This document shows, one piece after another, positions 12,246-53,229 of a stretch of DNA of 53,856 bases. The notes under the pieces are model-generated. The model ran no database searches. It was not told the origin of the DNA and saw nothing but the letters and a program-made list of their open reading frames with translations. Positions within the stretch are counted from its first letter, which is position 1. The number at the start of each line of letters is the position of its first letter. Position numbers and translations under genes: made by a program. The stretch is taken from positions 1 through 53,856 of the forward strand of contig JAMOTK010000016.1 in the NCBI GenBank assembly GCA_027062365.1, given 5' to 3'. The DNA comes from Sulfurovum sp. (lineage in GTDB: Bacteria > Campylobacterota > Campylobacteria > Campylobacterales > Sulfurovaceae).

Positions 12246-12280
12246 GTAACGCTAAAGCATCACATCCGATATATTCCATC
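12246..12280. repeat. Half REP-like palindrome upstream of ppx
   Basis: A single REP arm (GTAACGCTAAAGCATCAC, then ATCCGAT) of the family dispersed through the DGR lies between the ppx start and the first toxin unit. Confidence 0.75.
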
Positions 12281-12296
12281 TTCATCAACATTACGC

Positions 12297-12302
12297 TAAG
12301 AT
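12297..12302 (+). promoter_or_regulatory. Sense -10 box, toxin unit 1
   Basis: TAAGAT lies seven bases before the CTAGTT block; the same position carries TAAAAT in units 2 and 3. Confidence 0.5.
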
Positions 12303-12385
12303 ACCATGTCTAGTTAGGCGATTATTATGATGTGCATTGTGAGGAGTTAGGTGGGACAGGGTCAGCCTTTAAAAAGGATGTAACA

Positions 12386-12448
12386 ATGTACCTGAAAATA
12401 CTAATTGTTATACTTTTGCTACTAATTATAGTAACAAAAGCATTCTAA
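12386..12448 (+). CDS. Ibs-like small hydrophobic toxin peptide, copy 1
   Basis: The 20-residue peptide MYLKILIVILLLLIIVTKAF is almost wholly hydrophobic and would span a membrane once. It aligns with E. coli IbsC (MMRLVIILIVLLLISFSAY, from memory), a type I toxin that damages the inner membrane. A GGA ribosome site sits seven bases upstream. The gene is in a unit with a promoter on each strand and is followed by a perfect terminator hairpin. It is the most divergent copy: the end is TKAF rather than ATKAY and the leader differs at several bases. Toxicity is inferred. Confidence 0.75.
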   Translation: MYLKILIVILLLLIIVTKAF

Positions 12449-12455
12449 AAGCATC

Positions 12456-12480
12456 AAGGGAGTACCAGCTCCCTTTTTGT
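12456..12480 (+). terminator. Rho-independent terminator after toxin copy 1
   Basis: AAGGGAG and CTCCCTT form a 7-bp stem with a 6-base loop, ending in a run of T bases. It lies eight bases after the stop codon of the peptide gene. Confidence 0.75.
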
Positions 12481-12493
12481 CCCAACTAGGCAA

Positions 12494-12499
12494 ATTATA
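12494..12499 (-). promoter_or_regulatory. Antisense -10 box, toxin unit 1
   Basis: Perfect TATAAT on the minus strand just outside the 3' inverted-repeat block, conserved in all three units. Confidence 0.6.
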
Positions 12500-12520
12500 A
12501 CATAAAAAATCTAAAACTCA

Positions 12521-12588
12521 TAGGTTCGATTTTATCAAACAATTACCAAAATACAATCATGCTTCCTTGTTCGATGAAATCGAACCTA
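12521..12588. repeat. Palindrome between toxin units 1 and 2
   Basis: A perfect 12-bp inverted repeat (TAGGTTCGATTT / AAATCGAACCTA) encloses 44 bases; the right arm also forms its own hairpin TTCGAT-GAA-ATCGAA. Its sequence is unrelated to the main REP family. Confidence 0.7.
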
Positions 12589-12602
12589 CATAAATATTAC
12601 GC

Positions 12603-12608
12603 TAAAAT
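12603..12608 (+). promoter_or_regulatory. Sense -10 box, toxin unit 2
   Basis: TAAAAT lies seven bases before the CTAGTT block. Confidence 0.55.
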
Positions 12609-12615
12609 ACCATGT

Positions 12616-12795
12616 CTAGTTAGGCGATTATTGTGAGTTGCATTGTGAAGGAGAAGGTGGGACAGGGTCAGCCTCTTATAAAGGTTATAACAATGCTAAG
12701 ACTAATTGTAATTGTTATTCTTCTGTTGCTTATTGCGACAAAAGCGTATTAAAAGCGTGTGAGAGAGTTCTACGCTCTCTCATCTGCCCCAACTA
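12616..12795 (-). ncRNA. Predicted antisense (Sib-like) antitoxin RNA, unit 2
   Basis: A -10 box TATAAT (minus strand 12806-12801) predicts a start near 12795, reading antisense over the peptide gene. The 3' end is uncertain. Confidence 0.55.
12693..12752 (+). CDS. Ibs-like small hydrophobic toxin peptide, copy 2
   Basis: The 19-residue peptide MLRLIVIVILLLLIATKAY has the same length as E. coli IbsC and the same plan: a short basic N-terminus, a run of I, V and L, and a C-terminal AY. AAAGG lies eight bases before the ATG. An 8-bp hairpin (TGAGAGAG/CTCTCTCA, 12760-12782) follows the stop but lacks the T tract of copy 1. The toxin role is inferred from sequence likeness and from the antisense promoter. 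Confidence 0.8.
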   Translation: MLRLIVIVILLLLIATKAY

Positions 12796-12800
12796 GGCAA

Positions 12801-12806
12801 ATTATA
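12801..12806 (-). promoter_or_regulatory. Antisense -10 box, toxin unit 2
   Basis: Perfect TATAAT on the minus strand immediately outside the 3' CCCAACTAG block. Confidence 0.6.
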
Positions 12807-12834
12807 TCATAAATATTTTAAATCTAAAACACAA

Positions 12835-12896
12835 GTGACGCTGAAGCGTCACATCCAATATTCTGCTTTCGGACACGATGGCTTTAGCCTCGTTAT
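12835..12896. repeat. Complete REP-like unit between toxin units 2 and 3
   Basis: One full copy of the dispersed element: the hairpin GTGACGC-TGAA-GCGTCAC, a central spacer, then the hairpin around CGATGGC-TTTA-GCCTCG. Confidence 0.85.
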
Positions 12897-12926
12897 CAAT
12901 ATATTCTATTATTCATAAAATTACGC

Positions 12927-12932
12927 TAAAAT
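12927..12932 (+). promoter_or_regulatory. Sense -10 box, toxin unit 3
   Basis: TAAAAT lies seven bases before the CTAGTTGGG block. Confidence 0.55.
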
Positions 12933-12939
12933 ACCATGT

Positions 12940-13117
12940 CTAGTTGGGCGATTATTGTGAGTTGCATTGTGAAGGAGAAGGTGGGACAGGGTCAGCCTCT
13001 TATAAAGGTTATAACAATGAGACCACTAATCATAATTGTTATTCTTCTGTTGCTTATCGCGACAAAAGCGTATTAAAAGCTTGTGAGAGAGCGTCAACTC
13101 TCTCATCTGCCCCAACT
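12940..13117 (-). ncRNA. Predicted antisense (Sib-like) antitoxin RNA, unit 3
   Basis: TATAAT (minus strand 13129-13124) predicts a start inside the CTAGTTGGG arm near 13117 and an RNA antisense to the third peptide gene. The 3' end is uncertain. Confidence 0.55.
13017..13076 (+). CDS. Ibs-like small hydrophobic toxin peptide, copy 3
   Basis: The 19-residue peptide MRPLIIIVILLLLIATKAY differs from copy 2 only in its first residues (RP for LR) and I for V changes. The leader and downstream hairpin (13084-13105) are nearly identical to copy 2, so these two copies probably duplicated recently. The longest conventional frame here (192 bases, TTG start at 12944) overlaps the leader in another frame and is spurious. 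The toxin role is inferred. Confidence 0.8.
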   Translation: MRPLIIIVILLLLIATKAY

Positions 13118-13123
13118 AGGCAA

Positions 13124-13129
13124 ATTATA
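13124..13129 (-). promoter_or_regulatory. Antisense -10 box, toxin unit 3
   Basis: Perfect TATAAT on the minus strand just outside the 3' block CCCAACTAG. Confidence 0.6.
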
Positions 13130-13159
13130 TCATAAATATTTTAAATCTAAAACAAAATC

Positions 13160-13255
13160 CGTAGGTCGGAGTCTCCGACTCCGACATTAACCCACACAAA
13201 AAACATAGTTTAAATCTCTCAAATATCTGTCGGAGTGAGGACACTCCGACCTACG
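13160..13255. repeat. Paired palindromes downstream of the short variable protein
   Basis: Two hairpins with the same 8-bp stem GTCGGAGT/ACTCCGAC (13165-13185 and 13229-13250) lie within a larger inverted repeat (CGTAGGTCGG / CCGACCTACG). They form a second palindrome family, distinct from the main REP elements. The nearer hairpin lies 30 bases beyond the end of VR1 in the direction of DGR transcription. Confidence 0.8.
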
Positions 13256-13273: not shown

Positions 13274-13690
13274 CTATTGTCCTGCTCTCACACAACGCAC
13301 ATACTTACTATTGAACTTATTGCTGTAGTACGTACTGCCATCGTAGAAATAGACATACCAAGCATAGCTAGGATAACTCGCATTACTCGTAGAACTCCAA
13401 TAGTAGTAAGAGATAGTATTTTGAAATTGACTATCAATACTAGGATTATTTAGAGAATAATCCACAATAGAAATCAGTTCATTTTTATTCGGTAGTCGCC
13501 AGTCATCATGTGTGTCCAAGACAAGGGCTTCACATCGGTCTATTGCCCCTTGCCAAGTCGTCGTTGTGCCTATGGCATCGTCTTGCCACTGTAGCCCTGT
13601 ACTGCTGTCTGTGACGATATTGCCACTTTTGCTAAAGTTTGCCATACTGAGGCTACTCAGTCCTATCAGTATCAAAAGGATTTGTATCAT
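13274..13690 (-). CDS. DGR variable protein 1: short secreted DUF1566 (lectin-fold) protein
   Basis: The 138-aa product has a signal peptide (about 1-18, ending SMA) and one DUF1566/Lcl domain: the TGLQWQDD opening, the DDWRLPNKNEL core, and YYYWSSTS through RCVRAGQ at the C-terminus. The last 47 residues are encoded by VR1 and end two codons before the stop. Tyrosines and serines dominate the variable sites. The ATG overlaps the RT frame by 38 bases and has AGGA upstream, so expression is probably coupled to the RT. Known DGR targets use C-type-lectin-like folds to tolerate such variation; a ligand-binding role is inferred. Confidence 0.9.
   Translation of the reverse strand: MIQILLILIGLSSLSMANFSKSGNIVTDSSTGLQWQDDAIGTTTTWQGAIDRCEALVLDTHDDWRLPNKNELISIVDYSLNNPSIDSQFQNTISYYYWSSTSNASYPSYAWYVYFYDGSTYYSNKFNSKYVRCVRAGQ
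13280..13414 (-). other. DGR variable repeat 1 (VR1)
   Basis: The 135 bases align without gaps to the TR at 16204-16338 and match at 119 positions. All 16 differences fall on adenines of the TR coding strand, changing 14 of 17 AAC/AAT codons; no C, G or T of the template differs. The 3' end GTGAGAGCAGGA continues as CAATAG in the VR but TAATAT after the TR, a candidate IMH/IMH* difference. Confidence 0.95.
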
Positions 13691-14999
13691 TTATTTTTCC
13701 TACCTTGTTTAGTAAATTGAAGCTATTGCAGTGCTTGATATGCCCTTCAAATGAAGCTTGGACAGATAAAAAGGCTTTTATCTCTTCAAGGCTCATCTTG
13801 CCTTTTTGGCTTTCGTATGCGTCTAGGTATTTGGCTTTTTTTTGTTTGTAGTTGTTGACCACTCTTTTGCGTGAAAGTGTATAGTAAGGACGGATAATAT
13901 AGCCCAAAAAGTCCAAGCCCTCGCTATTGGCTTTGAGGATACTCTTCTCTCTTAGTTTTAGCTTTAAAGATTTGTCCAGATAGGCTACTATCTCTGTGTA
14001 GTGTTGCATCAGTTCTTCTTTGCTATTGGCAAACAAGACAAAATCATCGACATAGCGTAAATATCTCTTGACTTTGAGTGTGCGTTTGACAAAATTATCA
14101 AAATCATTCATATAGACATTGGCAAAAAATTGACTTGTGAGATTACCTATAGGTAAGCCTATATTTCTAGGGGCTTTGAGTAGGCTTTTGTGAGAAGGCA
14201 AAGCATCTATGGCTCTTTTATCCCCCTTGAAGATAACATCTTGGGTAATATCATGCCAAATGATGGTATGCACAACTTTGAGTAGTTCGTGCATCTCTAT
14301 AGCACTCTTACTTATGGGTGACGCTGAAGCATCACATCCGATATGTTTTTCTTTTGGACACGATGGCTTTAGCCTCGTCATGAGCGACGCTAAAGCGTCA
14401 CATCCGATGTACTCTTGCTTTAGCCTCGTCATGGGTGACGCTAAAGCATCACATCCGATGTACTCTTGCTTTAGCCTCGTCATGGGTGACGCTAAAGCAT
14501 CACATCCGATGGACTCTACTTCGGATACGACGGCTTTAGCCTCGTCATAGGATGAGATAATCTTCTCTTTAATCTTCAAAAATAAAATATCTTTATCGAT
14601 ACTATAAAAAAAGCTCCTCACATCAAGTTGCAAATAATACTTACTTCCTCTCATAAACTTTCTTGCCCTCTTGGTAGCCTGATGAATACCTTTGCCTTTT
14701 CTATTGCTATAACTGTCATAGATAAATGATGGCTCATAAAGTTGTTCTAACAATGGCACAATAAGATGATGCACCACCCTATCAGAAAAATCAGAAGCAA
14801 AAATCTCTCGTAATTTGGGAGAACTTGTCAAAAAACAGACAAAGCGTTTGGGTTTATAGCGATTATTATTGAGAGAAGTTTGTAAATGATAGAGATTTTC
14901 TATCAGATTGGCTTCAAAGTGTTGGGTATTGAGGGTATTGCTCTTATGCTTCCTACACCTTCGGTAAGCTTGATAAAGCTCTATATATGTAAACATCAT
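13653..14999 (-). CDS. DGR reverse transcriptase with an in-frame REP insertion
   Basis: The 448-aa protein carries the RT motifs of DGR enzymes. These are REIFASDFSDRVVHHLI (64-80), motif A YLQLDVRSFFYSID (122-135), motif B with the DGR-type IGNLTSQ (GLPIGNLTSQFFAN, 281-293), motif C RYVDDFVLFA (315-324) and LDFLGYIIRP (362-371). It would copy the TR RNA into adenine-mutagenised cDNA. Residues about 151-229 are not RT sequence: they are translated REP repeats containing recurring IGCDALASPMTRLK. Without them the protein is about 370 aa, normal for the family. Two adjacent ATGs exist; the second has better spacing from AAGGA. Whether the enzyme still works is unknown. Confidence 0.93.
   Translation of the reverse strand: MMFTYIELYQAYRRCRKHKSNTLNTQHFEANLIENLYHLQTSLNNNRYKPKRFVCFLTSSPKLREIFASDFSDRVVHHLIVPLLEQLYEPSFIYDSYSNRKGKGIHQATKRARKFMRGSKYYLQLDVRSFFYSIDKDILFLKIKEKIISSYDEAKAVVSEVESIGCDALASPMTRLKQEYIGCDALASPMTRLKQEYIGCDALASLMTRLKPSCPKEKHIGCDASASPISKSAIEMHELLKVVHTIIWHDITQDVIFKGDKRAIDALPSHKSLLKAPRNIGLPIGNLTSQFFANVYMNDFDNFVKRTLKVKRYLRYVDDFVLFANSKEELMQHYTEIVAYLDKSLKLKLREKSILKANSEGLDFLGYIIRPYYTLSRKRVVNNYKQKKAKYLDAYESQKGKMSLEEIKAFLSVQASFEGHIKHCNSFNLLNKVGKINDTNPFDTDRTE
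14316..14548. repeat. REP-like cluster inside the RT gene, kept in frame
   Basis: Several REP units lie within the RT frame between motifs A and B. Two central units are shortened to 51 bases (17 codons), each lacking the part that would introduce a frame change. The cluster adds about 79 codons without a stop. Confidence 0.9.
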
Positions 15000-15018
15000 T
15001 TTCCTTTTTTAATTGTAG

Positions 15019-15238
15019 GTGACACTAAAGTGTCACATCCGATATACTCTACTTCGGACACGATGGCTTTAGCCTCGTCATGGGTGACGCTAAAGCATCA
15101 CATCCGATATGTTTTTCTTTCGGACACGACGGCTTTAGCCTCGTTATGGATGACGCTGAAGCATCACATCCGATGTACTCTACTTCGGACACGACGGCTT
15201 TAGCCTCGTTATGGATGACGCTGAAGCATCACATCCGA
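15019..15238. repeat. REP-like array between RT and the RAYT gene
   Basis: About three and a half units of roughly 66-70 bases fill the gap between the RT start and the RAYT stop codon. Each unit has the arms GTGACGC-TAAA/TGAA-GCATCAC and CGATGGC-TTTA-GCCTCG. Confidence 0.9.
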
Positions 15239-15757
15239 TTAAAACTCATCATATACACTATAAAATCGTCTATCACTATCTTCTAATCCTGCTTTCATTG
15301 CATTATTTTCTATATACCTATACACTACATCAAAATGATTTTTATCTCTAATACTTTTATCATAAAAATCTTTTGCCCAAAATTGACCTTTTTTACCTAG
15401 TGCTTTATTAATTTCAAAAGCCAAAGCACCTTTGAGTTTGCCTATCGCTTCACTGATGATTATCGTCTCTTTAAAAAGGATATGTATATGATTTGGCATA
15501 ATACTAAAGCATACTACATCAAAAAGTTTCTTATCTTGTTTGATAATATATGCTTTGCATAACTCTAAAATAGTATCATTTAAATATCTACCATTTTTTG
15601 AACTGTCCAAATATTTATCCATTTCATATTGCTTTTTCTGGTTCTGCATTGGTAAATCTATCATTCTTTTTAAATAGTCATCTACACTATCTTCTGTTCT
15701 AAAAGTGACAAATTGATAAGAACCATCATTTGAGATATGTGGTAATTTTTTATACAA
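15239..15757 (-). CDS. REP-associated tyrosine transposase (RAYT, Y1/HUH family)
   Basis: RAYTs are single-domain HUH nucleases that bind, cut and mobilise REP palindromes. The HUH metal motif is in MPNHIHILFKE and the catalytic tyrosine is in YRYIENNAMKAGLEDS, matching the family's Y-x-x-x-N-x-x-x-A-G signature; QFWAKDFYDKSIRD is also characteristic. An ATG at 15790 exists, but its first codons are REP sequence. TTG at 15757 has AAAGGAG just upstream and begins where family likeness begins, so I prefer it (172 aa). REP arrays flank the gene on both sides, as in other RAYT loci. It sits between the DGR TR and RT. Confidence 0.9.
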   Translation of the reverse strand: MYKKLPHISNDGSYQFVTFRTEDSVDDYLKRMIDLPMQNQKKQYEMDKYLDSSKNGRYLNDTILELCKAYIIKQDKKLFDVVCFSIMPNHIHILFKETIIISEAIGKLKGALAFEINKALGKKGQFWAKDFYDKSIRDKNHFDVVYRYIENNAMKAGLEDSDRRFYSVYDEF

Positions 15758-15770
15758 AAATGCTCCTTTT

Positions 15771-16192
15771 GGATGACGCTGAATCATCACATCCGATGTA
15801 CGCTACTTCGGACACGATGGCTTTAGCCTCGTTATAGGCGACGCTGAAGCATCACATCCGATGTACTCTACTTTGGACACGATGGCTTTAGCCTCGTCAT
15901 GAGCGACGCTGAAGCATCACATCCGATGTACTCTACTTTGGACACGATGGCTTTAGCCTCGTCATGAGCGACGCTGAAGCGTCACATCCGATGTACGCTA
16001 CTTCGGACACGATGGCTTTAGCCTCGTTATAGGCGACACTAAAGCGTCACATCCGATGTACTCTACTTTGGACACGACGGCTTTAGCCTCGTCATGAGCG
16101 ACGCTGAAGCATCACATCCGATGTACGCTACTTCGGACACGATGGCTTTAGCCTCGTTATAGGCGACGCTAAAGCGTCACATCCGATGTACT
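15771..16192. repeat. REP-like array upstream of the RAYT gene
   Basis: About six and a half head-to-tail units of roughly 66 bases run from the RAYT start to the end of the DGR TR. Units differ at a few positions (GCATCAC or GCGTCAC; TACTTCGGA or TACTTTGGA), showing they are not all of one recent origin. No gene is present here. Confidence 0.92.
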
Positions 16193-16203
16193 CTTAAATA
16201 TTA

Positions 16204-16338
16204 TCCTGCTCTCACACAACGCACATATTTACTATTGTTCTTATTGTTGTTGTTCGTATTGCCATTGTTGAAATTGACATTCCAAGCATTGTTAGGATTA
16301 CTCGCATTACTCGTAGAACTCCAATAGTTGTTAGAGAT
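16204..16338 (-). other. DGR template repeat (TR)
   Basis: The 135-base template is read on the minus strand and contains 17 AAC/AAT codons in the frame of the targets. AAY is the preferred template codon because adenine changes give many residues but no stop. Both VRs match it at every non-adenine position. It lies between avd and the RT, the usual place, though REP and RAYT insertions now separate it from the RT by about 1.2 kb. A minus-strand frame from 16593 to 16201 reads through it, but most of that frame is REP sequence. Confidence 0.95.
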
Positions 16339-16414
16339 TAAGTTTTTCTCTTTAGCTTCTATCATAAAAAGTGTTATGATACAAGTGTCAAAGACGCTAT
16401 ACCACTGAAACAAA

Positions 16415-16504
16415 GACGAGGCTAAAGCCATCGTGTCCGAAAAAACATATCGGATGTAACGCTTCAGAGTCACCCATAACAAAGCTAAAGCCCTCGTCTC
16501 CGAA
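16415..16504. repeat. REP-like elements between avd and the TR
   Basis: One full and one partial REP unit lie in the 220-base interval between the end of avd and the TR. The partial copy carries AAAGCTAAAGCCCTCGTC. Confidence 0.85.
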
Positions 16505-16559
16505 TTATTCAATGGTGGAAAAACTGCACAATATTTTGGCACTCTTTCAAAAGACAGTA

Positions 16560-16913
16560 TCATTTTGAAATTCTCGCCGTTTGTTTGAGCCATCCTTGGG
16601 CTTGGATGACTACTGCCATCGTAAGCTTAGAAACCTCTGCAAATTGCTTTAAGCCCTTAAATGCCTTTAGCTCTTGGGCGACTCTGATGAGCATTTTTAA
16701 CTCTTCACATTTATCTCTTAGGGCTTCTAGCTCCTTTTGTCTCTCTTTTGCCATATTGGCTCTTTGTATCAAAAACAATATCTCTTTGCTATAGACCCGT
16801 AAATCCAATCCTATACCATACTTCTCATACCTATCAAAGCCTTTGACTATCGTCTCTATATAGACCACCAAATTCAAGGCTGATTTAAAAATCGGTAAAT
16901 TATCATAAAGCAT
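16560..16913 (-). CDS. avd: DGR accessory variability determinant (Avd)
   Basis: Avd is a small four-helix-bundle protein that forms a pentamer, binds the TR RNA and RT, and is needed for mutagenic cDNA synthesis. The 117-aa product fits in size, basic charge and pattern: LPIFKSALNLVVYIETIVKG (helix 1), GIGLDLRVYSKEILFLIQRAN (helix 2), a charged helix 3, and FAEVSKLTMAVVIQAQGW (helix 4). AAAGGA lies six bases before the ATG. It starts 26 bases after the long variable protein gene, and the TR follows it. The fold is shared with the S23/four-helix-bundle family, so the DGR context supports the name. Confidence 0.92.
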   Translation of the reverse strand: MLYDNLPIFKSALNLVVYIETIVKGFDRYEKYGIGLDLRVYSKEILFLIQRANMAKERQKELEALRDKCEELKMLIRVAQELKAFKGLKQFAEVSKLTMAVVIQAQGWLKQTARISK

Positions 16914-16939
16914 ACTTTTCCTTTAAAGTGATAAAGTGA

Positions 16940-19900
16940 CTATTGTCCTGCTCTCACACAACGCACATATAGACTACTGTTCTTAAAGTTGCCGTACGTA
17001 CTGCCATTGCCGAAAAAGACACGCCAAGCACGGTAAGGACTACTCGCATAACTCGTAGAACTCCAATAGTAGTAAGAGATAGTATTTTGAAATTGACTAT
17101 CAATATTAGGGTTAAATTTACCATTATCCACAATATACAACAACTCTTTTACCGTAGGTAGTCGCCATCCTCCACCATTTAGATTGAGATTACTACAATA
17201 AGTCGTCGCTGTATCTCCTGAGGTATTGCTGTAGTCTCCTGCGTCATAATTGGCTTGTGTGAGCCATGGTTTACTTATGCTCTCATTGTCTTGCCATTCC
17301 AAGCCTGTGACATGGTCGGTAACTATGCCGAAGGCATCATCTCTACTGTAGCTAGGTGTTGCTCCTTTTTGGTAGTGTCCGTCATCGTAGGGGGTGTAGG
17401 TGGTGGTTTGGGCTGTTTTTTTGAGGGTACTCGTAGCAGTACTTGTCTGTGGCACTACATTGACTACAACAGAATCTACACTCTGCGTGATACCATCGCT
17501 TACTTTGAGATAAAAGGTGTAAGAGCCTTCTAGCATAGATATAGGTACTATCATCGTGGCTGTATTGCCAAGTACATTTCCTTCAAATGTCCATTCATAA
17601 CTTTGTATATTTCCTGTACTCGCAGAAGCATCAAGGGTAATAACTTGCCCTACTTCTTTGATTTGGTATGCTCCTGCATTGGCTTTTAGTGGAGCTTCTA
17701 GGACAGTGACGATGACGGTATCACTGACTTCGACAGCATCTAAACCTTTTACAGTTAAAGTAATCGTATGTTCTCCTAATCCAAAGGTATTGAGAGCTAA
17801 GATAGGGCTTGTAGATAAGAGTGTATTGTCTGTATCAAACCATGAAGAAAGAACAATCATCGCATCAAGAGCCTCACTGTAACTAGAATTTATCTCTCTG
17901 TTTTCACCTAAATACATCTCTATATCTTCTCCTACATTGGCAAAAAGAGGAGTTACTCCATTCAGATTATCTAAAATGACTTTAAAAGCAACGCGATCAA
18001 CAAGTAAAGCATTTTTGAATTCCATATTTTTCAATTTAGTATAATTTACGATGTATGGTTTTAGTATATTTTCATTGTCAAAAAAGTCATAAGCCAATCT
18101 ATCGTAGAAATAAAAATGAATATCATTTAAATTACCTTCTGTATCTTTATACACATCAAGAGTATCCTTAAACGCTTCTCCTGCGTCAATACAAGTGACA
18201 AATTTATTTTTGGGTATATCGTTGAGCAAACCTACTTCATAATCATATTGCACATCATAACAAATAGGATATTGTCCTATATTTTTAATATTGACTGTAC
18301 CTAAAACATCATCATTTTCTTTCCATATTATCAAATTAGTTCTGATGACATCACTGTTATGGACATGATAGCCATAATAGGCTGTTGAATTTTGCTTAAG
18401 ACTGTCTATAATAAAATCTGCACTCAAAGAAGGCATCATTTCTACATCTACAGATTCTTTAAAGATACCTCTATACTTATCTACTACTTGTAGATTGCTT
18501 CCTCTGTTTTTTTCCCATGCTTCTATAATATCAAGATAAGAAATATTATTATTTCCTGCTTTTAAGTCTGCTGAACGAATATCTTCAGAAGTAATACGAT
18601 TGTTCGCAACCGTGGCTACAGGCACAAAACTATCTTGGTCTTCACTGTCATTTTGGGATTTCTCAATATTTAAATCAAATGCAAAAATAGTTTGACCGAT
18701 ATAGGCATCGGTTTCAAGTAAATCTTCAAAATCTCCATCAATCAATATACCATCTTGATTTGCTTCAGTAAAAAACATATCAAACTTTGGTCTATGATGA
18801 ATATTGTCATTCACATCATCTACAGCGACAAGAAATCTTGTTTTACCTTCAAAATATTGTGAGATACTAGAAGTAGGTTTGATTTTGGCATCTGTAGCAA
18901 TACCTGAAAAGCTCACAGGAGGGAGCGATATATCTACGACACCGTTATCAAAATCTACTTGAAAGTATTGTGCATTTGAAATCACTAGATTACCCACAAG
19001 GAAACTAGACCAATCATTGACAGCTTGAACAGCTTTTACCGTTGCCCCTGCTGGATTCATCTTATAAACAATACTCAAAATAGCATCTCCTGCTAACCCT
19101 TTAATATTTACCAATTGACCTTTAATGAGAAAAGTACCAATATCTTTCATGGCTTGTAGAGGGTCTTCTATTTTAAGAATAGTATTGGTATATTCTTTAA
19201 TCTTACTGGTTGCTTTGGCTATTTGTGCCGTATTATCTGTATATTTTTCAAATATTTGTTTCACTGAACTAAGCAAAGATTTACTGATAAAGTTGTTACC
19301 ATAATACAAAAGAGCAGGTATGATTTGCTCATCTACTTCTCTTGCTTCTATCAATTCATATTTTCTCAATGCTATATAGTATGCCATTTGAGAAAAAGAG
19401 ATAATCGTTTCATATTTATCGTTAAATGCTTGAATCTTATCTTTTCCCTCTTGATTACTCTTAATCAAAGGTTCAATCACTTTATTTAGGAACAAAGCTG
19501 TAGAAAGCACTTTCCACTCTTTATTTTTATCATCAATCGTATCAATTTTATCTTGCAATATCTCTCTTGTTCTGGTATTTTGAGTATTTGAAGGTACAAC
19601 AGCAATTGCTCCTCCTAAAAGTTGTTTCAATTGAAATATCTCTTTAAAGCTCTTTACATCAGGCGAATAGGCTTGAACATTGACTACACTATAGGCGTGA
19701 CTTAAAGCACTTCTTCCTGTGTCCAAATATTTTCTATAAGGTTGAACATATTCTTTTGTCACCTCAGGATTTGCAAATTCTAAAATATCTAAGCCCAACT
19801 CAACCACTGTTATCGTGGCATCAACAGCATGGAGGGTACTTTCGTATTTGGCAAAGGCATCTTTTCCTTTCTTAATAAGAGATTCTAAGCCTTTTTGAAA

Positions 19901-21232
19901 CTTATCACCTGCCCCACCACTTAAAACCGTTTTTAATATCAAAGAGATACCTCTTCCTGTATTTAGCAGTGAAGGCAGTCCTCCTTTCCATTTATAAATC
20001 TCAATCAATGCTTTATGTGTACCTGTAATATCACTAGAAACATCCAATAAATCATTATATTTTATAGTAGAGGTAGGGCTATAGAGTAAAGGCACTTGGT
20101 TGGTTGCCCAATCAAACAATCCTCCAACAGCACCCCCTTTGACAGGGTCAATCTGATGAAGTGTTTCTGTAGTAAACATAGGATAATCAAAGGCTTGTTC
20201 TACCCCATCATACCTATAAGTCCTTACCCCATAATAGACATCGGCATAATTTGAAAATTCTATTTCCTCATCGGATGATTTTATCTGCATCAATGCCATA
20301 TTGGTAAAGAACTTGTCTTGATTGATATACTTAAGACTCTTTCTTACAGCACTTGCGATGCTTGTTGGTTCTGCTTCATATTTACTAAGTACAATATTTT
20401 GAAGTGTTGTAATCAAGTCATAATATTGTGGTGTAAAAAATGAACTTTTATTTGAGAGCTTTTGAAACCTCAACGCTTCATCATAATTTGTGATATATTC
20501 ATCTTTTAAAAAGGCAATATATTCTATTTTTTTATCTTCTGCTATATCTACAAGATAAGGGTGCATAAATATTCTAGCCAGAAGCGTTGTCTCTTCATTG
20601 AGCTTACCTACCCATTCGCCTATATTAAAACTCCTATAGACAATGACATCTTTAATAATCTCTTCATTGTCACTATTGGTATAGGTGATTTGCTGATTTG
20701 CCACGACATCCGTCAAACCTCCGATACTCCCCACCTCTCCGTTACTGTCTTCAATAACACCGACCACAGTTAAGCTATCTTTCACTTCTTGTGATAGATT
20801 CAACTCATCAATCACAAAAGATAAATCAGCATCATCTAATTGAAGAATCTCTACAAGTCGTGTAGCTTCTATGCGATTATTTCTACTATCTACAGCCGAA
20901 TAAGTCACACTATATTGACCTTCTATATTCGTATTGACCGTACTAGCTATGGAGACAGAAAGAGAACTATTACCCTCTAGTGCCGTAGCACCTAGTTCTT
21001 GATAGGCTGTACCCTTTTTGAGAATAAGTGGATTGTCTCCGATGATAGTAACACTTGAAGAAGTACTACGTGTAGAAGTAGTAGGACTATTGGATAAGAG
21101 TAAAAAGTTTGTGATGATGCTTAGTGTTGCATGGAGTTGCTTATCACTCAAAGCCGTATTTGCCGAAGCACTTTGCATCGTGAAGCCAAATAGAAAGAGA
21201 AGGGTTAAGAGTTTTTGAAGCGTATGTTTCAT
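16940..21232 (-). CDS. DGR variable protein 2: 1430-aa secreted multidomain DUF1566 protein
   Basis: A signal peptide (MKHTLQKLL to ASA, about 1-24) is followed by a short module with LHATLSIITNF, a DUF5011/HYR-like Ig domain (about 65-130) and a roughly 1000-residue region I do not recognise. A PKD-like domain (about 1175-1260) and a C-terminal DUF1566 domain (about 1275-1430) complete it. VR2 encodes the last 47 residues. The start at 21232 has AAGGA upstream; an in-frame upstream ATG at 21307 would translate a 9-bp microsatellite into repeating QYP and is unlikely. The plan suggests a long exported adhesin or receptor displaying a variable lectin tip. It precedes avd on the same strand. 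Confidence 0.9.
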   Translation of the reverse strand: MKHTLQKLLTLLFLFGFTMQSASANTALSDKQLHATLSIITNFLLLSNSPTTSTRSTSSSVTIIGDNPLILKKGTAYQELGATALEGNSSLSVSIASTVNTNIEGQYSVTYSAVDSRNNRIEATRLVEILQLDDADLSFVIDELNLSQEVKDSLTVVGVIEDSNGEVGSIGGLTDVVANQQITYTNSDNEEIIKDVIVYRSFNIGEWVGKLNEETTLLARIFMHPYLVDIAEDKKIEYIAFLKDEYITNYDEALRFQKLSNKSSFFTPQYYDLITTLQNIVLSKYEAEPTSIASAVRKSLKYINQDKFFTNMALMQIKSSDEEIEFSNYADVYYGVRTYRYDGVEQAFDYPMFTTETLHQIDPVKGGAVGGLFDWATNQVPLLYSPTSTIKYNDLLDVSSDITGTHKALIEIYKWKGGLPSLLNTGRGISLILKTVLSGGAGDKFQKGLESLIKKGKDAFAKYESTLHAVDATITVVELGLDILEFANPEVTKEYVQPYRKYLDTGRSALSHAYSVVNVQAYSPDVKSFKEIFQLKQLLGGAIAVVPSNTQNTRTREILQDKIDTIDDKNKEWKVLSTALFLNKVIEPLIKSNQEGKDKIQAFNDKYETIISFSQMAYYIALRKYELIEAREVDEQIIPALLYYGNNFISKSLLSSVKQIFEKYTDNTAQIAKATSKIKEYTNTILKIEDPLQAMKDIGTFLIKGQLVNIKGLAGDAILSIVYKMNPAGATVKAVQAVNDWSSFLVGNLVISNAQYFQVDFDNGVVDISLPPVSFSGIATDAKIKPTSSISQYFEGKTRFLVAVDDVNDNIHHRPKFDMFFTEANQDGILIDGDFEDLLETDAYIGQTIFAFDLNIEKSQNDSEDQDSFVPVATVANNRITSEDIRSADLKAGNNNISYLDIIEAWEKNRGSNLQVVDKYRGIFKESVDVEMMPSLSADFIIDSLKQNSTAYYGYHVHNSDVIRTNLIIWKENDDVLGTVNIKNIGQYPICYDVQYDYEVGLLNDIPKNKFVTCIDAGEAFKDTLDVYKDTEGNLNDIHFYFYDRLAYDFFDNENILKPYIVNYTKLKNMEFKNALLVDRVAFKVILDNLNGVTPLFANVGEDIEMYLGENREINSSYSEALDAMIVLSSWFDTDNTLLSTSPILALNTFGLGEHTITLTVKGLDAVEVSDTVIVTVLEAPLKANAGAYQIKEVGQVITLDASASTGNIQSYEWTFEGNVLGNTATMIVPISMLEGSYTFYLKVSDGITQSVDSVVVNVVPQTSTATSTLKKTAQTTTYTPYDDGHYQKGATPSYSRDDAFGIVTDHVTGLEWQDNESISKPWLTQANYDAGDYSNTSGDTATTYCSNLNLNGGGWRLPTVKELLYIVDNGKFNPNIDSQFQNTISYYYWSSTSYASSPYRAWRVFFGNGSTYGNFKNSSLYVRCVRAGQ
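16946..17080 (-). other. DGR variable repeat 2 (VR2)
   Basis: The 135 bases align without gaps to the TR and match at 113 positions. All 22 differences fall on template adenines, and 14 of 17 AAC/AAT codons are altered, with more double changes per codon (CGT, TTT, GGC) than VR1. The 3' flank CAATAGTCACTTT is shared with VR1 and differs from the TR flank. Confidence 0.95.
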
Positions 21233-21243
21233 GCCTATCCTTA

Positions 21244-21295
21244 GTGGGTATTGTGGGTATTGTGGGTATTGTGGGTATTGTGGGTATTGTGGGTA
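21244..21295. repeat. 9-bp tandem repeat in the leader of variable protein 2
   Basis: The unit GTGGGTATT occurs about 5.8 times just upstream of the preferred start codon on the minus strand (ACCCACAAT as read in the message). No other such microsatellite was noticed in the window. Confidence 0.9.
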
Positions 21296-21335
21296 AAATT
21301 GTAACATTTTTGTGCTTAAAACTTAATTAGTCTTA

Positions 21336-21494
21336 GACGAGGCTAAAGCCGTCGTCTCCAAAGCAAGAGTATATCGGATGTGATGCTTTAGCGTCACCCT
21401 TGACGAGGCTAAAGCCATCGTTTCCAAAGCAAGAGTATATCGGATGTGATGCTTTAGCGTCACCCTTGACGAGGCTAAAGCCATCGTTTCCGAA
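21336..21494. repeat. REP-like array between ilvA and variable protein 2
   Basis: Nearly three units of about 66 bases, the inner ones almost identical, end five bases from the ilvA stop codon. Hypothetical frames through this array are artefacts. Confidence 0.9.
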
Positions 21495-21498
21495 ATGC

Positions 21499-49644: not shown

Positions 49645-52600
49645 ATGAAAACTATCATTAACAAACTCCTCTTTATCTTATTATTTCTTTTCAGTTTTAA
49701 TAATTTTGTTTTAGCTGACAACACACTTGAAGATAATGAGCTTCACGCTGTATTGAGTATTATTACCAATTTTATTTTAGACTCATCCTACACTCTTAGT
49801 CCTCCAACTTTAACTTCTGATACCCCGACACAAACTATTGAAGACAATACAACCATAGAAGTCAATGGTGCAGTAGGTTCTACTGTATATTTGAATGGTG
49901 AATATGTAGGCATTATAGGTGAAAATGGTACTTTCAGCATAGTACTCCCTTTAATTATGGGAGAAAACAATTTTGAGTTCACACTTAAAGATGCAACTGA
50001 TAGAGAGAGTGAAGCACTTCATATCTCAATCATAAAACTAGATGCTATCAAACCCTTAATTGTACTTAAGGGTTTAAATCCTCAAATAATTGAGTTTACT
50101 ACACCTTATGTAGAATTAGGTGCTAACGCCTATGACTATACCACTTCAAATCTTGACTCTTCTATCAAAATTGATAGTACAAGTGTTACTACCAACATAA
50201 TAGGTGATTATAATGTTACTTATGATGTAGAAGATGAAGGTGGCAATCAAGCTGATAGAGTCACACGACTTGTACAAGTAAGAGATAGAATAGCTCCCGT
50301 ATTTACGAATGAAGACAATGTTAGCGTAGCAGAAAATCAAACAACTGCCATTAGATTAGCAGCCACAGATAAGGCAAATGATTTAATCTATAGTATTGAT
50401 GATAATGACTCATTTGATGTCGATGAAACAACAGGGGTAGTAACCTTTAAAAATCCACCTGATTATGAGCAGAATACAAATTATCATTTTACAGCTACAG
50501 TCACAGATGGAAGTAATAATAAAACTGAGCAAAATGTAACTATTAATGTGACAAACCTAGATGACACAGCACCTATATTTCACAATGATGATAATGTATC
50601 AGTAGAAGAGAACCAACAATTTGCAATTGAATTAAATGTAACAGATGCAAATTACATTACTTATAGTATTAGTGGTGTAGATAGTGGAAGCTTTGACATA
50701 ACAACTACAGGAGTAATAACCTTTGTATCTTTCCCTGATTATGAAGATAAAATAAGTTATACCTTTACAGCTACAGCAGATGATGGGATTAATACAACAG
50801 ACCAAAATATTACGATTAACATTATCAATATTGATGATAGCGACCCTATATTCCATAATTCAGATACTGCAACAGTAGATGAGAATCAACGTGATGCGAT
50901 TAACTTAAATGCAACTGATGATTTTGGTACTGTTATTTATAGCATAGCCACTGGATATGATAGTGCTTATTTCACTGTTAATACTAGTACAGGAGTAGTA
51001 ACATTTAAGCAAGATGCTGATTATGAGCATAAAGTAACGTATACTTTTGTAGCCATTGCTAGTGATGGAACAAATAGTGCCAACCAAAAGGTTACTATTA
51101 CCGTTACAAACCTAGATGATACAGCACCTGTCTTTACCAATGGAGACACTGTTAGCGTAGCAGAGAATCAAACAGATGCTATTGATTTAGATGCAACAGA
51201 TGACTTCAACAGCCCTTTAACTTATAGTATTTCAGGAGGTGATTATGAATCATTCGAAATCAATAGCTCTACAGGTGTAGTAACCTTTCTTACAGCACCT
51301 GACTTTGAAAGTGGTATCACGCAATACACATTTACTGCTACTGTAAGTGATGGATTTAATGAAGCACATCAAAATGTAACTATTAATGTGACAAACCTAG
51401 ATGACACAGCACCTATATTTCACAATGATGATAATGTATCAGTAGAAGAGAACCAACAATTTGCAATTGAATTAAATGTAACAGATGCAAATTACATTAC
51501 TTATAGTATTAGTGGTGTAGATAGTGGAAGCTTTGACATAACAACTACAGGAGTAATAACCTTTGTATCTTTCCCTGATTATGAAGATAAAATAAGTTAT
51601 ACCTTTACAGCTACAGCAGATGATGGGATTAATACAACAGACCAAAATATTACGATTAACATTATCAATATTGATGATAGCGACCCTATATTCCATAATT
51701 CAGATACTGCAACAGTAGATGAGAATCAACGTGATGCGATTAACTTAAATGCAACTGATGATTTTGGTACTGTTATTTATAGCATAGCCACTGGATATGA
51801 TAGTGCTTATTTCACTGTTAATACTAGTACAGGAGTAGTAACATTTAAGCAAGATGCTGATTATGAGCATAAAGTAACGTATACTTTTGTAGCCATTGCT
51901 AGTGATGGAACAAATAGTGCCAACCAAAAGGTTACTATTACCGTTACAAACCTAGATGATACAGCACCTGTCTTTACCAATGGAGACACTGTTAGCGTAG
52001 CAGAGAATCAAACAGATGCTATTGATTTAGATGCAACAGATGACTTCAACAGCCCTTTAACTTATAGTATTTCAGGAGGTGATTATGAATCATTCGAAAT
52101 CAATAGCTCTACAGGTGTAGTAACCTTTCTTACAGCACCTGACTTTGAAAGTGGTATCACGCAATACACATTTACTGCTACTGTAAGTGATGGATTTAAT
52201 GAAGCATATCAAAATGTGACTATCAATGTTTATGATGTACCAGAAGCACAAGCACCTAAGAAAACAGGACAGACAGTAAGTTATGATGAAAATGGTCAAG
52301 TAATTGGTGATAATTCACTAAAAGATGATGGTTACTATAAAGCAGGATTTGAATATAGCTACACAAGATATGATGATGGCACAGTGCTAGATACAGTTAC
52401 AAGTCTAATGTGGGCAGACGATGATGCTGTAAAAACTGTAACAAAACCATGGATAACATCAGAAAGCTATACTGATGGAAATTATCATAATACAGCAGGT
52501 GATACAGCTACTAATTACTGTGAAGACTTAGAATTATCTACTTATGTAGACTGGAGACTCCCAACAAGAAAAGAACTGCAAGAAATCAATTTGGCAAGTA

Positions 52601-52779
52601 CACATGCACCTTCGATAGATGGTGAGTTCCAAAATACAGCAGATGCTTACTATTGGAGTTCCACTTCTCGTGCTTCTTCTGAGAATAATGCATGGTATGT
52701 AGACTTCAATGAAGGGTCGTCAAATAGTGTAAGTAAAGATGCAGAACACTACATCCGTTGTGTAAGAGTTTCAGAATAA
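49645..52779 (+). CDS. Secreted cadherin-repeat protein with C-terminal DUF1566 domain
   Basis: The 1044-aa protein has a signal peptide (about 1-24) and a short module (LEDNELHAVLSIITNFILDSS) closely like that of DGR variable protein 2. A DUF5011/HYR-type Ig domain (about 130-210), seven cadherin-like repeats (about 215-860) marked by NLDDTAPIF or NIDDSDPIF, and a DUF1566 lectin-fold domain (about 885-1044; VDWRLPTRKEL, YYWSSTSRASS, HYIRCVRVSE) follow. It is probably an exported adhesin. Unlike the VRs, its last 45 codons differ from the TR at many non-adenine bases, so it is not a current DGR target. AAAGGA lies upstream of the ATG. Confidence 0.88.
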   Translation: MKTIINKLLFILLFLFSFNNFVLADNTLEDNELHAVLSIITNFILDSSYTLSPPTLTSDTPTQTIEDNTTIEVNGAVGSTVYLNGEYVGIIGENGTFSIVLPLIMGENNFEFTLKDATDRESEALHISIIKLDAIKPLIVLKGLNPQIIEFTTPYVELGANAYDYTTSNLDSSIKIDSTSVTTNIIGDYNVTYDVEDEGGNQADRVTRLVQVRDRIAPVFTNEDNVSVAENQTTAIRLAATDKANDLIYSIDDNDSFDVDETTGVVTFKNPPDYEQNTNYHFTATVTDGSNNKTEQNVTINVTNLDDTAPIFHNDDNVSVEENQQFAIELNVTDANYITYSISGVDSGSFDITTTGVITFVSFPDYEDKISYTFTATADDGINTTDQNITINIINIDDSDPIFHNSDTATVDENQRDAINLNATDDFGTVIYSIATGYDSAYFTVNTSTGVVTFKQDADYEHKVTYTFVAIASDGTNSANQKVTITVTNLDDTAPVFTNGDTVSVAENQTDAIDLDATDDFNSPLTYSISGGDYESFEINSSTGVVTFLTAPDFESGITQYTFTATVSDGFNEAHQNVTINVTNLDDTAPIFHNDDNVSVEENQQFAIELNVTDANYITYSISGVDSGSFDITTTGVITFVSFPDYEDKISYTFTATADDGINTTDQNITINIINIDDSDPIFHNSDTATVDENQRDAINLNATDDFGTVIYSIATGYDSAYFTVNTSTGVVTFKQDADYEHKVTYTFVAIASDGTNSANQKVTITVTNLDDTAPVFTNGDTVSVAENQTDAIDLDATDDFNSPLTYSISGGDYESFEINSSTGVVTFLTAPDFESGITQYTFTATVSDGFNEAYQNVTINVYDVPEAQAPKKTGQTVSYDENGQVIGDNSLKDDGYYKAGFEYSYTRYDDGTVLDTVTSLMWADDDAVKTVTKPWITSESYTDGNYHNTAGDTATNYCEDLELSTYVDWRLPTRKELQEINLASTHAPSIDGEFQNTADAYYWSSTSRASSENNAWYVDFNEGSSNSVSKDAEHYIRCVRVSE
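50530..52209 (+). repeat. 840-bp exact tandem duplication in the cadherin-repeat gene
   Basis: Two adjacent 840-bp copies (about 50530-51369 and 51370-52209) are identical over at least 830 bases by line-by-line reading. Each encodes three cadherin-like domains (280 codons). Differences appear only at the ends (GCACAT versus GCATAT). Confidence 0.92.
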
Positions 52780-52848
52780 GTGACACAAAAGCATTCTCTT
52801 CCTTTTATGGATGAGAAGCTAAAATTATATAATAAGGTAGGAAAATTT

Positions 52849-53229
52849 ATGAAAAAAAATATATTGATTTTAATAGCTATGAGTAGCCTTAGTTTGGCAG
52901 TACCAACAACAGTGCCAGACAGTATTACTGGTCTAGAATGGCAAAATACAACAGCAACAAATCTTACTTGGACAGAAGCTATAAGTAGCTGTGAAGATGT
53001 AGGATGGAGACTAGCAAACAAAAATGAGTTATATACGCTTGTAGATGATTCAAAATACAATCCTAGCATCAATGATGCATTTGTTGCTACTACTGAATCT
53101 AATCCATATTGGACAAGTACAACTTCTTCTAAAGATAAAAACCATGCATGGAGCATTAACTTCTTGGATGGCAGTAGTAGTAAATTAAATAAAAGTTCTA
53201 CTGCGTCAGTTCGTTGTGTAAGAGATTAA
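52849..53229 (+). CDS. Short secreted DUF1566 protein
   Basis: ATG at 52849 with TAGGA upstream gives a 126-aa protein; a longer frame starting with GTG at 52780 is less likely. A signal peptide (MKKNILILIAMSSLSLA) precedes a compact DUF1566 domain: DSITGLEWQN, DVGWRLANKNELYTLVDD, PYWTSTTSS and the final SVRCVRD. Plan and size match DGR variable protein 1 (13274-13690), but the end differs from the TR at many non-adenine bases. It follows the cadherin protein gene by 69 bases. Probably an undiversified paralogue. Confidence 0.83.
   Translation: MKKNILILIAMSSLSLAVPTTVPDSITGLEWQNTTATNLTWTEAISSCEDVGWRLANKNELYTLVDDSKYNPSINDAFVATTESNPYWTSTTSSKDKNHAWSINFLDGSSSKLNKSSTASVRCVRD

Follow-up and report, generated by a model that had tools for sequence, protein, structure and literature searches.

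A diversity-generating retroelement of Sulfurovum, probably active in the recent evolutionary past, with a nested RAYT/REP element

It has been reported that the diversity-generating retroelement (DGR) of BPP-1 requires a hairpin with a GC-rich stem of 7-10 bp and a 4-nt loop, that in phage DGRs such hairpins lie 4-34 bp from the VR (PMC3240598), and that a spacer directly behind the template repeat (TR) of BPP-1 recruits RT-Avd (PMC12875486). No Pfam domain is reported to be more frequent among DGR target genes than DUF1566, which has the CLec fold (PMC6642488). RAYT has been named in one paper among the occasional neighbours of bacterial reverse transcriptase (RT) genes in general; within the open-licence literature no paper linking RAYT/REP elements to DGRs was found, and the words "transposase" and "insertion" are absent from PMC6642488.

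Our study concerns a window of 53,856 nucleotides, contig C16 of a Sulfurovum sp. genome of 2.30 Mb in 77 contigs that is rated 99.8% complete. In this window we identified a DGR with at least three DUF1566 targets, which was probably active in the evolutionarily recent past and whose core appears to have been colonised by a tolerated, selfish RAYT/REP element. The newness lies in this nested element, not in the DGR itself. A preliminary description of the locus was right to call it a DGR; it was incomplete in that it missed a VR in trans, the RAYT/REP invasion and an in-frame insert in the RT.

Anatomy and adenine-only variation of the retroelement

The locus is a genuine diversity-generating retroelement of known type. 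Its genes lie on the - strand in the order 1455-aa ORF with a C-terminal DUF1566 (Lcl_C) domain, avd, TR, Y1 transposase, RT and 138-aa DUF1566 protein, which confirms the earlier placement of avd, TR and an RT with an IGNLTSQ motif on one strand. The 1455-aa ORF, target 2 (16940..21307), combines surface Ig-like and PKD-like domains with the terminal DUF1566 domain; the length of 1430 aa given for it previously holds when counted from the ATG at 21232, the longest ORF being the one stated here, and the 138 aa given for target 1 (13274..13690), the start of which overlaps the RT end, stands as it was. Hydrophobic N-termini are the basis on which both targets are predicted to be secreted. The product of avd (16560..16913) matches bAvd PF22296 at 34 bits, under the cut-off of 40, and genes 54-88% identical to avd are found at the corresponding place in related DGRs, adjoining the TR in most relatives. 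The RT (13653..14999; 448 aa) has intact IGNLTSQ and YVDD motifs, and GNLTSQ and YVDD are kept in related RTs. Its best match among solved structures in a sequence search is the DGR RT 8ub7 (E 1.9e-32), and DGR RT entries also rank top in a fold search with its AlphaFold model.

The TR (16204..16338), VR1 (13280..13414) and VR2 (16946..17080), all on the - strand, align without gaps across 135 bp, and our recount returned the 16 (VR1) and 22 (VR2) differences originally described, each at a TR adenine. The translations likewise bear out that 14 of the 17 AAC/AAT codons of the TR are altered in each VR. A occupies 52 of the 135 TR bases, and 0/83 non-A sites are changed in VR1 or VR2 (hypergeometric p of 4e-8 for VR1 and 2e-11 for VR2). 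The terminal 24 bases, several A included, are constant in every VR, which is expected where cDNA starts. An open frame runs across the TR with a partial Lcl_C match, and the genome holds many Lcl_C domains, both of which agree with an origin of the TR/VR pattern by ordinary paralogy and selection on lectin-like ends, with no retroelement involved. The substitution pattern refutes this explanation, to which we assign practically no probability: VR1 and VR2 hold no non-A difference at all, old Lcl_C pairs differ evenly across codon positions, avd and a DGR-type RT adjoin the TR, and the A-only pattern recurs in relatives.

A search of the whole genome with the TR yielded one more VR, unlinked to the window DGR. 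This VR3 lies at ~21116-21250 of contig C30, at the end of a 193-aa DUF1566 ORF, and shows 20 differences from the TR in 133 bp, 19 of them at A and 1 at T. All three targets, the one on C30 included, have an Lcl_C (DUF1566) domain and carry the VR in their C-terminal end. Because a single RT gene is detectable in the genome, VR3 represents a target in trans, of a kind overlooked by contig-limited DGR surveys; at the stated completeness of the assembly, a second RT on missing sequence could conceivably exist as well. Except for the C30 gene, the DUF1566 genes elsewhere in the genome (~22 DUF1566 domains in all) were rejected as current VRs of this TR on account of their many non-A differences.

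The same part order with A-only VRs was found in L076, L077, L079, L080, L082, L083, L084, L088, L090 and others. With a layout shared by many Campylobacterota and with DUF1566 among the common DGR targets, the DGR itself is ordinary. The claim of a complete DGR is well supported: no defining part is missing, and chance comes nowhere near accounting for the A-only pattern.

A RAYT/REP element in the core and in the reverse transcriptase

The TR and the RT are 1204 bp apart in the window, as against 2-20 bp, sometimes 114-506 bp, in relatives without insertions. The gap holds a RAYT gene between two arrays of 65-bp units, each unit an inverted palindrome pair: a REPIN array directly 3' of the TR (15767..16199) and a second array between RAYT and RT (15013..15251). 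Array lengths may be misjudged in draft assemblies such as those used here. The RAYT-type Y1 transposase (15239..15790, - strand; PF01797 at 45.9 bits) probably starts, as judged by eye, at a TTG at 15757 behind AAAAGGAG; also by eye, its HIH motif lies in MPNHIHILF and its tyrosine in RYIENN. It is distinct from the three IS200-like copies of the genome, shows a dN/dS of ~0.2-0.3 against its counterparts in the genomes G039 and G146, and is likely the cognate transposase of the neighbouring REPs. No RAYT relatives were found among viral contigs. A palindrome search placed further REP copies on the far side of the TR, in the avd-TR gap (16415..16507), upstream of target 2 (21336..21495) and downstream of target 1 (12248-12273 and 12837-12894); an Rfam search of the palindromes returned sub-threshold chance matches only. 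The region downstream of target 1 also contains, at 12269-13157, a ~310-bp tandem repeat in three copies, each copy containing a very short hydrophobic ORF (MLRLIVIVILLLLIATKAY at 12693-12752, MRPLIIIVILLLLIATKAY at 13017-13076 and a similar third near 12386), which we take to resemble the Ibs-type small toxins of type I toxin-antitoxin systems; these repeats had no match in Rfam.

Genome-wide, 28 REP half-sites were identified with up to 3 mismatches, 16 of them in this 9-kb locus; with a fuller consensus, 20 of 22 matches fall in the DGR locus. Outside the locus, one half-site lies behind another DUF1566 gene (C16:53286) and the rest are scattered, mostly single and nearly all intergenic. 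The idea that the REP family is private to the DGR was rejected, as the broader pattern describes a family that is clustered here and has its remaining members scattered. Some REPs are in frame, namely in the RT and in one other gene. We also rejected the RT as the only gene with an in-frame REP, given that a 566-residue open frame on contig C44, the start of which looks like a DNA methylase, carries one at C44:21472-21497 (L164; YIGSDALASPNEL).

The RT has ~75 residues more than its relatives, located between the motif-A helix and motif B. This insert (14307..14549, - strand; ~residues 151-231) consists of REP copies, including three 51-bp tandem units at 14366-14518, and falls between the two RT segments that align with 8ub7 (4-148 and 277-427). 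On the coding strand, the frame that is read has 0 stops across the insert, and the two alternative frames have 11 and 7. In the AlphaFold model, which was built on ten aligned sequences and has a mean pLDDT of 68, the palm is good and residues 171-230 have a pLDDT of ~28-37, so the insert is predicted to be disordered. These observations suggest that a long loop encoded by REPs can be accommodated in a DGR RT. No comparable long insert was found in the other full-length RTs without a RAYT among the relatives compared. The DGR RT at G388:C99:31469-32332 (L145) differs in another way in this region, lacking ~77 residues between motif A and motif B through a deletion that keeps the frame.

Recurrent invasion and copying after the arrival of the RAYT

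The invasion is not confined to the window. In G039:C84, from the same genus, a frameshifted RAYT lies between TR and RT, and the RT ends after ~40 residues, followed by what appears by eye to be an IS66-type element. In G146:C66, from the same family (assembly 81% complete), a RAYT again lies between TR and RT, and in the window, G039 and G146 alike there are REPs on both sides of the TR. Two REP inserts stand in frame in the G146 RT, the first at the site of the window insert and the second after YVDD. The RAYTs of the window, G039 and G146 form a clade (support 94/85), whereas in the RT tree the window joins the RAYT-less L076 (95/89) and G146 is placed elsewhere. Simple inheritance of the RAYT with the DGR from one ancestor is therefore not supported, the two trees disagreeing at moderate supports. 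In G058 (L084/L091), a RAYT of more distant kinship (45% identity) lies downstream of VR1, together with a different palindrome family whose members are also in frame within the G058 RT. In L083 the RT is split between two frames and holds an in-frame insert of a further palindrome-like kind; no RAYT was found in the stretch of L083 examined. The L083 record is titled Helicobacter pylori and clusters with environmental Campylobacterota DGRs, so that its title may reflect a mislabelled MAG.

Other loci appear to have lost their DGR cores. In L087 (Sulfurovum sp. FS08-3), positions 1100-2410 between two targets are occupied by palindromes and a RAYT of another type, the TR and most of the RT are gone, and only the last ~120 RT residues remain; judging by this arrangement, its DGR core was replaced by the RAYT. 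The Sulfurovum genome under study holds six further tandem DUF1566 pairs (window 52378-53223; C7, C34, C49, C50, C56), with no detectable RT between the members of any pair. The pair ends on C49 and C50 differ at codon positions 1/2/3 by 11/12/3 and 9/9/6, respectively, compared with 11/12/1 for the true VR pair, and the differences of the remaining four are spread evenly over the codon positions. We read the C49 and C50 pairs as probable recent ghost DGRs and the other four as old ghosts or ordinary pairs. On C50, the expected avd-TR-RT position is taken by a RAYT accompanied by a REP pair of its own. Ghost cassettes of the same genome would represent different stages in the decay of a DGR, for which RAYT insertion is one possible cause.

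The comparison with G039 bears on the order of events. Between the window and G039, the TR differs at one A site and, in addition, at positions 27, 30, 43, 63, 78 and 117; five of the latter six differences are synonymous. When L076 is taken as outgroup, the changes to 27G and 43C fall on the lineage of the window and those to 30C, 78T and 117T on that of G039. The window states are present in all three window VRs and the G039 states in the G039 VR. Between the two genomes avd has a dS of ~1, and VR1 and VR2 are identical to the TR at all 82 non-A sites compared. As the VRs of each genome carry the states of their own TR, the TR must have been copied into them after the window and G039 split; as the RAYT occupies the same place in both, it already lay between TR and RT during this later copying. 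These results provide evidence that retrohoming continued after the RAYT arrived, presuming a single insertion shared by the window and G039. The argument leaves the age of the insert inside the RT undated, on which the 51-bp units give a weak hint: any two of them show 2-5 differences, which exceeds the non-A divergence between TR and VRs, and the insert may therefore be older than the last VR update.

These data also bear on the possibility that the DGR is dead, the RAYT/REP insertions having split the TR from the RT and inactivated the latter, with the VRs left as relics. The wide TR-RT spacing (1204 bp vs 2-506 bp) and the ~75 extra RT residues are compatible with this, and invaded DGRs do die, as in G039 and L087. 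We nevertheless find it quite improbable, because the RT frame is open with all core motifs kept and because no non-A site distinguishes VR1 or VR2 from the TR, even where the window has synonymous states of its own that post-date the split from G039; the differences among the 51-bp units weakly hint, in addition, that the VRs were last updated after the insert had arisen. A-only mutagenic retrohoming took place, and the earlier claim to that effect is upheld both by the A-only differences and by the TR-specific changes in the VRs of the same genome. We infer that the interrupted RT is the enzyme behind the VR updates and that it, and with it the DGR, may still work today.

Hairpins, proposed mechanism and relation to described systems

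The palindromes could in principle have a use. A hairpin with a perfect stem of 9 bp and a loop of 4 nt (13229..13254, - strand), 26 bp past the end of VR1, is a copy of a second REP family, of whose 11 genome copies ~5 lie close behind DUF1566 genes. Stems of at least 7 bp were found in 8 of 27 VR flanks, compared with 5.5% of control windows. The flanks of VR2 and VR3 have weak hairpins only. We treat the supply of the VR hairpin by REPs as a lead and not as a result. Directly behind the TR, the palindrome array replaces the spacer, and by analogy with BPP-1 this replacement might impair function.

Co-option must also be weighed, in which the DGR would have taken over the RAYT/REP element, with REP hairpins serving as a structured RNA spacer or a target-recognition hairpin, or with the single-strand nuclease aiding integration. 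RAYTs within the DGR loci of the window, G039, G146 and G058, and one of another type in L087, fit such a role, as do the REPs on both TR sides in the first three, the purifying selection on the RAYT and the second REP family behind several DUF1566 genes, where BPP-1 needs its hairpin (PMC3240598). Most related DGRs, however, work without a RAYT or REP array, the G039 RAYT is frameshifted, the RAYTs of L087 and C50 sit at lost DGR cores, and REPs are present elsewhere in the genome too; for these reasons we consider co-option unlikely. A broader version, in which RAYT/REP is a recurrent functional partner of DGRs whose hairpins replace the TR spacer and the VR hairpin and whose nuclease acts on DGR cDNA or target DNA, has in our judgement a poor chance of being correct; if true, it would make RAYT/REP an accessory module of DGRs.

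A selfish element nested in a DGR is the most economical and most likely view. According to this explanation, the TR would be transcribed, RT-Avd would make mutated cDNA from it and the cDNA would integrate at the VRs, so that a single TR, reverse-transcribed with mutagenesis at its adenines, would diversify no fewer than three DUF1566 proteins (two encoded in cis, one in trans) at their C-type-lectin-like ends; these proteins are presumably exposed outside the cell. A selfish RAYT/REPIN would have colonised the core, leaving its transposase and palindromes in the TR-RT gap and palindromes on both sides of the TR, and REPs would have become fixed in frame within a disordered RT loop, tolerated rather than useful. 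Selection would have kept the RT frame and catalytic core, so that the DGR went on working; where that selection failed, broken or RT-less ghost DGRs would have resulted, in relatives and at other loci. The moderate tree supports, the draft-assembly array lengths, the reliance of the copying argument on one shared RAYT insertion, the palindromes in place of the TR spacer and the want of a good hairpin downstream of VR2 count against this explanation. As pure conjecture, RAYTs might be drawn to DGRs by single-stranded cDNA as a substrate for their single-strand transposase. The nested element amounts to a natural experiment, which suggests that a TR and RT more than 1 kb apart, with a palindrome array as TR spacer, did not put an end to retrohoming.

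Compared with described systems, the window DGR shares with the prototype of BPP-1 (RT structures 8ub7-8ubf; PMC3240598) avd, the TR, an RT motif of the (L/I)GXXXSQ type, A-only mutagenesis, a C-type-lectin-like target end and a hairpin, here behind VR1. Unlike BPP-1, it is bacterial, has three targets, one of them in trans, and has a RAYT and REP array in the TR-RT gap; its RT carries an in-frame REP insert and its hairpin loop is TCCT, not GRNA. With bacterial DUF1566-target DGRs (PMC6642488, PMC4159848) it has in common DUF1566 targets and more than one VR per DGR, but those papers mention no RAYT or REP element. The related DGRs of Sulfurovum and other Campylobacterota (L076-L090) have the same arrangement of large target, avd, TR, RT and small target with A-only VRs, and most of them, unlike the window, lack a RAYT, arrays and an RT insert.

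Palindromic repeats in frame inside protein genes are also known from Rickettsia, as the Rickettsia palindromic elements, which the window resembles in having such repeats fixed in frame. They are unrelated to those found here, which have a likely cognate transposase nearby and a DGR RT as host gene. In RAYT/REP (REPIN, BIME) systems (PMC2817692, PMC3116915), as in the window, a Y1 transposase gene lies between tandem arrays of palindromes that are paired in inverted orientation; in those systems, however, REPs are usually extragenic and numerous, whereas the window palindromes cluster in one DGR locus and lie partly inside a coding gene.
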